From positions 3,942,501 through 4,006,500 of the forward strand of contig NC_134028.1 in the NCBI RefSeq assembly GCF_964204645.1: a stretch of DNA of 64,000 nt, written 5' to 3'. Each line of letters opens with the position of its first letter. The first letter of the stretch is position 1. This DNA comes from Tubulanus polymorphus. Its lineage: Eukaryota; Nemertea; Palaeonemertea; Tubulaniformes; Tubulanidae. The notes under the pieces were generated by a model. The model saw only the letters and a program-made list of their open reading frames with translations. It was not told the DNA's origin and searched no databases. This document shows positions 19,018 through 33,454 of this stretch, in pieces. The translations under genes were made by a program, and so were the position numbers.

Positions 19018-19989
19018 ATGCTGATGAACAAGACGAATTTTCACGCTATAAGAGGTAGGCCGGTGTACTGGACTTCAATGATCGAAAACAGATTCTCCAA
19101 CCCGTCGACGATGCGCGCAACGGAATACTGGCTTGACATTATTGGTTTACCCACTATCGCCATATTCGGTTTATTTGGGAATACTTCTACCTTATTCCTG
19201 TTGATATTTTAAAAACTCTCTGGTCGTTCATACTTCATTTTCTTGTCTATTTTGGCAGTGTCCGATTCGATCGTACTTCTCGCCCATTTCATGTTCTGGG
19301 TGAATTTGATTTTCCTGATTTTACGCGACAATATCGTTATCGAGTTCCATTCGACTGCGTCCTGCCTCGCAACTGCTACCATCATACACGTAGCTCAAAA
19401 CATGTCGTCTTGGTTCGTTGTTGTCGTGTCCTGGGAGCGGTTTTTCTGCGTTTCGATGCCATTCTTGGCACAACACATCAACCAAGTTAAACAAGCTAGA
19501 ATTGTATCTCTGTTCACTATTTTGTGCTGCACGGCATCTTCTATAAAATATTTCTTGTACGTGAGATATTCTACTGACGTTTGCGTTTACATCAAAGGAA
19601 ATCTTTACGACACTTTATCGTTTGTATTTAGCTTCACGATCGGTTATATTCCGGCCGGTTTGATTATGGTTGCGAACGCTTTACTTCTTATCAACTTAAA
19701 AAGGAGCGAAAATGCATTTCAAAAAGGTACGAATACCAGCCGCCGAAACAAGAATAGGGCTTCCTCTGTGATCTTAGTCGTGACATTTTCATTCCTTATT
19801 TGTTGTATGCCACATTGGATGATGCAGAGCGCTAAAGTATATAAATCGTCAAATCGTTTTTTGCAATCGTTAAACGATATTTTGGCGTTCGTCTACGTCA
19901 TCAACTACGGCATTAATTTCTTTATATACGTCACCACTGGTACAGAAATCAGAAATGCAATCAAACAAAAACTGTTCTACTGCGAGTAG
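19018..19989 (+). pseudogene. Rhodopsin-family (class A) GPCR with one in-frame stop
   Basis: One reading frame runs from ATG 19018 to TAG 19987-19989, broken by TAA at 19210-19212 just after the first membrane helix. Apart from that codon it encodes a full seven-helix receptor of about 322 residues. TM1 has GNTST, TM2 LAVSD (the conserved LAxxD), TM3 ends WERFF in place of DRY, TM6 has FLICCMPHW, and TM7 has NYGINFFIY in place of NPxxY. Both sides of the stop share the frame, and a Leu codon TTA changed to TAA would explain it. No GT/AG intron removes it. The style resembles invertebrate peptide-receptor expansions (FMRFamide-receptor-like), ligand unknown. It may be a recent pseudogene, a segregating null allele or an assembly error. 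Confidence 0.8.
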
Positions 19990-20111: not shown

Positions 20112-21042
20112 TCAATTCAGCGTTTTTTGGCAGATATAGTATCCATCTCTGTTGCAGTCAGCAGAAAACCATTTGCCAAAATAATCAGTATCATATTCAT
20201 CTTGAAGCAAGTCGATCATAACACACTGACCCCATGCGGTAGGTTGATAGCGGTGCCACTTGGTATAACCATCCTGATGAATATATACAGTAAACCCCCG
20301 ATATGCCGCCCACATTGGTGCACAGCGATTTTGGCGGTATAGAGAGTATGGCGGTATATCGGGGGTGTTTTACTATCTATTTGTATTGAGATGTACATTG
20401 AGAAAACCTGGCGGTAGGCGGGGGTGGCGGTAAATGGGAGGGCGGTATATCGGGGGTTGACTGAACATGTCGAAAACGCAACGTGCAATCGATATTCTCT
20501 CAGATTCAACAAGGTTTGAACACTATCTATACTTACAGTCGCAAATTTGCCATCGGCAATTCTTGTAAAGTCCAAGAAGGTGGAGCCCGAATACGGTCTA
20601 CCAAAATTATCTGAAAAGTTATAATCATTAATTTTAGTTGTACCATGTTACTTCGTCATGGAATAAAAAACATTTCGGTGGCATTTTAACCATCAGTTTT
20701 CACTTAGATTCAGGAGCGAAATGACGAACGCCTATGATGATAATTCTGTGACACTTACTGACGATATTTTCATTTTCAAATTCGTTTTTAATGCGTAAAA
20801 GATTAGCGCCTTTTTCAACACAGCGTCTCCTCGCTGTGTCTATACCGGATACGCGGTCACCAAGATAATAGCACGAATCGCCAATCTTTACCCAATTACC
20901 CGAACAAATGCCTGAAACTGCGACACATTATATGATGCTACATGACATATTATCATCTCATTCCAAAACTACATGTATACAACCATTTTCTACCTTCGTA
21001 TAATAGTGTCAATAATACAACAGTCGTTACTCCCAGCGACAT
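20112..21042 (-). CDS. Small secreted C-type lectin-domain protein (145 residues)
   Basis: Four exons: 21042-20994, 20911-20759, 20610-20537 and 20273-20112; phases match and the stop is TGA 20114-20112. Residues 1 to about 17 form a signal peptide (MSLGVTTVVLLTLLY). The rest is a single C-type lectin domain with six cysteines. It begins ICSGNW...DSCYYLGD, has the ARRRCVEKGANLLRI helix region, and ends GKWFSADCNRDGYYICQ. The loop that usually carries EPN or QPD reads QPTAWGQC, and the WND position reads WFSADC. Canonical calcium-dependent sugar binding is therefore doubtful. Proteins like this are secreted or found in mucus and haemolymph, often in immunity. An AATAAA on the minus strand at 20061-20056 lies about 50 bases past the stop. 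Confidence 0.87.
20288..20463. mobile_element. MITE with CAGTAAACCCCCGATAT ends (pogo/Tigger-like)
   Basis: The left end CAGTAAACCCCCGATATGCC is matched by the right end, whose reverse complement is CAGTCAACCCCCGATATACC. The interior repeats GGCGGTA words. It is about 176 bp long and sits in the last intron of the C-type lectin gene, 15 bases from the acceptor. CAGTCAACC-type ends recall Tigger/pogo elements; TA flanks the left end but not the right. Confidence 0.7.
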
Positions 21043-32482: not shown

Positions 32483-33454
32483 ATGAACGCCGAGCTATTT
32501 CAAGCATCGCGCCCCGACATCTGCGCTAGCGCTAGTCAAGACGGGCAGGTTGAAGCCGCGGATACTACGAGCGCAACACCAGACATGAAACCTATAATAG
32601 ACGAGTCGGGAGAATCGACGAAGAAAACTGCACCGCCGAAGAAAGGCGCGCGAAAGAGAACCGAAACCAATAACAACAACGATAGCGAAAATACGGGGGT
32701 AGTAAAGAAGAAGCGTTACTCGAAATCGAGGCAGAAAGAAAAGAATCCGAATTTAGTTATCAAAATGAAAAAAATCCGACGAGTAAAAGCGAACGATCGC
32801 GAACGCAATCGCATGCATAGTTTAAACGATGCTTTGGACGTGCTACGCGATGCTTTACCCACGTTACCGGATGAGGCGAAACTGACGAAAATCGAAACGC
32901 TTCGAATGGCTCATAACTACATCTGGGCGTTGAGCGAAACATTGAAGGTTCTCGAAGTCGATCCGAACGCGTCGGTGGGATTACCAACTCTGGATCCGTC
33001 TGCTGCCGATACTAGCGGATTTACGACGGACACGAACACGGTCGATTATTCGACGGACAATTCACCGGTAAGCTCGCCTTGTCCCGGCAGCGTCGACGCG
33101 CCTCTGACGCCTTCGTGCGGCGAGAACTCACCGCTCGGACTTACCACCTACAACTACGACGTGATGTCGCCGTGCTCGATGTACGAACAGAAAATATCAA
33201 CTCATCATTCGCCTCGTCCGCAACAGCAAATACTATTCGACCAAAAACTACTGGCGACTCACGAATTATACGAACACAATATCATGGACAATAACCGACT
33301 TTACGAACAGAAATTTACGGACAATCGACATTCGTTTTTTAGTTCTAATAATAACGGTTGGTTGCCAAATCATCCTTCATCGTCACCGATTCTGTCAAAC
33401 TATATCGAACACTCTATGTACTCTCCGCGACCGAACGAGCATTTCGGAGTTTAA
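32483..33454 (+). CDS. neurog: Neurogenin-like proneural bHLH transcription factor
   Basis: Neurogenins are proneural factors that bind E-boxes as heterodimers with E proteins and commit cells to neuronal fate. One coding exon encodes 323 residues. ATG 32483 is the first start downstream of the acceptor at 32450, within GAGAGAGATGAACG. Residues 71-98 are Lys/Arg-rich. The bHLH domain spans about residues 99-153: the basic region [20 protein letters not shown] and helix 2 [18 protein letters not shown] are nearly diagnostic for the neurogenin subfamily against NeuroD or atonal. The tail is Ser/Pro/Thr-rich, then Tyr/Asn/His-rich, as expected of an activation region. A single coding exon with a 5' UTR intron is usual for the family. 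The gene sits alone between two long non-coding regions, as regulated developmental genes often do. Confidence 0.95.

Follow-up and report, generated by a model that had tools for sequence, protein, structure and literature searches.

Premature stops in otherwise well-preserved sensory receptor genes have been described in several animals. The serpentine receptor families of C. elegans contain single-defect genes (“flatliners”), for several of which wild isolates carry alleles that are likely functional (PMC2576165), and Ir75a of Drosophila sechellia is a pseudo-pseudogene in which readthrough has been demonstrated (PMC5615767, PMC7244557). Moreover, some candidate chemoreceptor genes of Aplysia carry stops (PMC2700072), and 179 olfactory-receptor pseudogenes segregate in dogs (PMC12703715).

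Here we describe a locus of this kind at 19018-19989 (+) of the window, i.e., the whole stretch of 64,000 nucleotides of Tubulanus polymorphus DNA that was analysed. Like the nematode flatliners, the window copy is a GPCR of apparent chemoreceptor type that looks intact in the reference genome except for one apparent defect; however, while several flatliners have those wild-isolate alleles, the window gene is known from one haploid assembly. Like Ir75a, it presents a probable sensory-receptor frame with one premature stop and a conserved remainder, whereas Ir75a is an ionotropic receptor with proven readthrough and the window gene is known from sequence alone. By description it can also be likened to the AcCR b/c genes of Aplysia (PMC2700072), which belong to a large lineage-specific family and encode class A GPCRs of about 320-360 aa in a single exon.

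A class A receptor frame interrupted by one TAA

Translation of the intronless frame gave 64 codons, a TAA, 258 codons and a terminal TAG. The following features are referred to below:

19018-19209 (+): pre-stop open half, 64 codons, with the N-terminal family signature and TM1 (GN motif)
19210-19212 (+): in-frame TAA at the junction of TM1 and intracellular loop 1, in a variable alignment column
19213-19989 (+): post-stop open half, TM2-TM7 and helix 8, 258 codons and the final TAG, Pfam 7tm_1
19291-19989 (+): longest ATG-initiated frame 3' of the stop, 232 aa, beginning within TM2 and lacking TM1
19055-19258 (+): possible cryptic in-frame intron of 204 nt, GAG/GTAGGC ... TTTTGGCAG/T (slashes mark the splice positions), which would excise the stop, the N-terminal signature and TM1

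The TAA at 19210-19212 is the sole internal stop, and the frame is common to both sides. Neither a frameshift nor a further stop was found in the 323 codons of the window copy, leaving the TAA as the single disabling lesion; such a two-part frame, matching one receptor family on both sides, is far beyond chance. When the stop was modelled as Gln in AlphaFold (for modelling only; mean pLDDT 82), TM1 spanned residues 34-64 and the stop took up residue 65, where intracellular loop 1 begins. Thus the original prediction of a single TAA after helix 1 was borne out, the stop lying one residue past TM1, and the six bases that follow it are AAACTC, as had been stated.

The same prediction had called the locus a full seven-helix GPCR, and both the profile search and the structure model agree. 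The post-stop part alone matched Pfam 7tm_1 at E 3.3e-16 (60 bits, against a gathering cut-off of 30.5), and, more weakly, the Srw and Srsx models of nematode chemoreceptors; the read-through model contained seven helices and helix 8 (residues 34-64, 71-101, 113-146, 157-173, 194-234, 241-271, 280-307 and 309-321). All 17 intact paralogs scanned also matched 7tm_1, and in profile scans the window gene and its paralogs alike resembled the Srw/Srx/Srsx models. Among solved structures in the PDB, the best match by sequence was GPR139 (E 1.7e-8) and the best by fold were the somatostatin and opioid receptors (Foldseek: SSTR1, opioid and other class A receptors, TM about 0.7); the window protein is just 15-20% identical to these structures. 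The locus is a class A (rhodopsin-like) GPCR gene, and the resemblance of its single-exon family to nematode profiles suggests that the family is probably chemoreceptor-like.

The family landmarks are retained in the window copy. Invariant throughout alignment A2, the window copy included, were G51/N55, D83, C116/C189 and E140-R141, i.e., the GN of TM1, the D of TM2, the cysteine pair joining TM3 and ECL2, and the E/DR that ends TM3. For the canonical CWxP and NPxxY the family has the variants PHW (TM6) and NYxINFFxY (TM7), and the window copy keeps both; it also keeps the N-terminal signature YW..-IENRF-...MR..-YWL in the alignment with intact paralogs.

Paralogs and constraint on the two sides of the stop

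The chromosome-scale assembly (268 Mb, 77 contigs) was searched for relatives of the window gene and yielded about 19, all intact and single-exon. The seven nearest were 40-44% identical to it over the whole protein, and 41-49% over the post-stop part in the genome search; in the alignment, identity to the near paralogs was 41-50% before the stop and 40-45% after it, or about 43% on either side; the next dozen were around 33-36% identical, followed by a tail into a very large GPCR set. With the pre-stop part as lone query, 19 other places were recovered, all belonging to this family, with open frames of 321-374 aa. With an intact paralog as query, the window locus aligned over its full length, interrupted by a single TAA, in accordance with the earlier statement that the landmarks are intact and in the same frame on both sides. 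None of the 19 other subfamily members has a stop at that position, where the paralogs carry K, T, P, R or a gap. An intact second-haplotype copy was also sought within the assembly, which contained neither a second copy nor a haplotig of the window locus.

At the family-invariant columns the window copy differed four times, each time mildly (M>L, T>S, Y>F and F>L), against three differences in the intact paralog L009. Codon-position identity was highest at position 2 and lowest at position 3, before and after the stop alike, which indicates a protein-coding pattern on either side. A codon model with a separate omega for the window branch was then fitted (fixed protein tree, 13 taxa, 313 codons): lnL was -10902.6 at a window-branch omega of 0.1, -10903.65 at the shared value of 0.147 and -10913.7 at 1. 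The value of 1 was thus worse than 0.1 by 11 lnL (4.5 for the pre-stop part alone and 6.6 for the post-stop part) and is rejected, while the background omega of 0.147 is compatible with the window branch. Since synonymous sites are saturated on the window branch, whose length hits its limit under a loosely bounded fit, these omegas are rough and insensitive to late relaxation, and just the contrast with omega = 1 is used.

Thus both the pre-stop and the post-stop part show purifying selection, comparable with that on intact paralogs; the proposed comparison of dN/dS before and after the stop found equal constraint, and relaxation in either part was not seen in identity, codon positions or the codon model. 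Such constraint, together with the few and mild differences, indicates that the receptor worked for nearly the whole of the gene's history. At the base composition of the window, 4.2% of random substitutions create a stop in this frame, and since the 323 codons hold no further lesion, the neutral d since death is placed below 0.022-0.041 at 95%, an upper bound that assumes indel:substitution ratios of 0.05-0.15 and that zero also fits. Therefore the death of the gene, if it has occurred, probably dates back no more than about 2-4% of neutral divergence.

Stop-bearing GPCRs elsewhere in the genome and the status of the TAA

About 400 partly overlapping GPCR matches were examined for internal stops, which yields a lower bound on the base rate: at least two other genuine single-stop copies were present. 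One (L034, C12:10504389-10505246) has one internal TGA, and an intact copy on that contig matches it at 99.8% of 945 nt; with a difference of only 0.2%, this pair shows directly that an intact receptor of this genome has acquired a single, very young nonsense change. The other (L042, C3:7598653-7599357) has one TGA at the position of the DRY arginine and is otherwise open. Most other stop-flagged matches were false alarms, for instance stops that lay beyond the coding part, introns, or the stop that ends the gene.

L034 belongs to a set of near-identical copies (95-99.8%) scattered over contig C12. A further pair (L038 and L039, C6:10910152 and 10915052) is near-identical, in opposite orientation and about 5 kb apart, with two in-frame stops upstream of TM3 that are common to both copies; this reflects either pseudogenes with shared lesions or a misreading of upstream exons.

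Most likely, the window copy is a young null allele or pseudogene, fixed or segregating, comparable to a flatliner. Recent loss is the reading best supported by three lines of evidence: i) constraint is equal before and after the stop; ii) no further lesion has accumulated; iii) L034 provides a precedent in the same genome. The locus would have been under normal purifying selection for almost its entire history and would then, recently, have gained one nonsense codon; translation would stop after the N-terminus and TM1, so that this allele would yield no receptor. We infer that the stop is genuine in the animal and that the full-length protein is absent. A young fixed pseudogene and a null allele that segregates with intact alleles are equally possible. 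The original prediction had listed recent death, polymorphism or error, and bypass without ranking them; recent loss, fixed or segregating, is the part that stands, whereas bypass, whether by readthrough, splicing or editing, has found no support. This reading draws on the absence of decay in one haploid sequence, a state that a bypassed or mis-called stop predicts as well, and each of these alternatives was therefore weighed.

Functional readthrough, with the UAA decoded at useful efficiency in sensory neurons to yield a full-length receptor, is very unlikely. The post-stop frame is indeed conserved without decay, and the stop occupies a variable loop column in which nearly any inserted residue should be tolerable, as the confidence of the Gln model (pLDDT 82) also suggests; fly sensory receptors moreover show readthrough of premature stops, highest in neurons (PMC5615767, PMC7244557). 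Yet no positive sign of it was found at this locus: the RNA downstream is no more stably folded than shuffled sequence (z -1.1 and -0.2), with no stem-loop 3' of the stop by these fold z-scores and no Rfam element near it, and a stop at that position is missing from all 19 other subfamily members. To our knowledge, UAA-AAACTC matches no leaky readthrough context. If readthrough did take place, the gene would represent stable bypass of a TAA in sensory neurons, i.e., a pseudo-pseudogene among GPCR-type receptors, of which we know of no demonstrated case. An assembly or base-calling error, with a sense codon in the animal itself, is about as improbable: the stop does sit where a T4 run meets an A5 run, the setting in which long-read consensus is weakest, and many codons become TAA by a one-base change, but the frame is kept, so that a plain homopolymer-length error is insufficient and a substitution or two compensating length errors would be needed. 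The window, moreover, contains no N, the assembly is chromosome-scale, and the genome has other single-stop GPCR copies.

Bypass at the RNA level, through the cryptic intron at 19055-19258 or a start at ATG 19291, would yield a protein without TM1 in a new role and is the least probable of the readings. The donor GAG/GTAGGC and the pyrimidine-rich acceptor TTTTGGCAG match the consensus well, the length is a multiple of 3, and the acceptor AG is absent in the seven near paralogs. On the other hand, the excised stretch contains the conserved N-terminal signature and TM1, with codons constrained like the rest; each paralog is open throughout and lacks an intron at this place, and loss of TM1 would be expected to disable a class A receptor. 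The 204-nt intron is thus judged a coincidence. A true intron over the stop was also considered and rejected, as the in-frame GT-AG candidates are all at least 90 nt long and all delete TM1 sequence.

As what is most likely one more young nonsense allele, an ordinary event in such large receptor families, the window copy is by itself of little weight. Being a clean receptor with a single lesion, however, it is a test locus for readthrough versus polymorphic loss, which resequencing and a reporter would decide. It also calls for caution in annotation: such genes should be recorded as null alleles whose status is uncertain, neither silently dropped nor silently repaired.

Neighbourhood of the receptor gene

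Candidate C-type lectin domain exons were read at 20112-20297 and 20700-20927 (-), convergent to the GPCR. The original prediction had remarked that no AATAAA lies between the end of the GPCR and this convergent gene; the remark is true but uninformative, since an AATAAA within 600 bp was found in none of the seven nearest intact paralogs either, and its absence was rejected as a sign of death.

A short inverted-repeat element of the CAGTAAACCCCCGATATGCCGCC type, with 29-nt arms that are 86% complementary, lies at 20283-20468 and adjoins the last exon of the putative lectin gene. At least 40 dispersed copies of it were found at about 88-93% identity, and by its sequence it appears to be a MITE-like DNA transposon remnant. 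Farther downstream, 32483-33454 (+) holds what reads by eye as an intact single-exon bHLH gene of neurogenin/atonal type.
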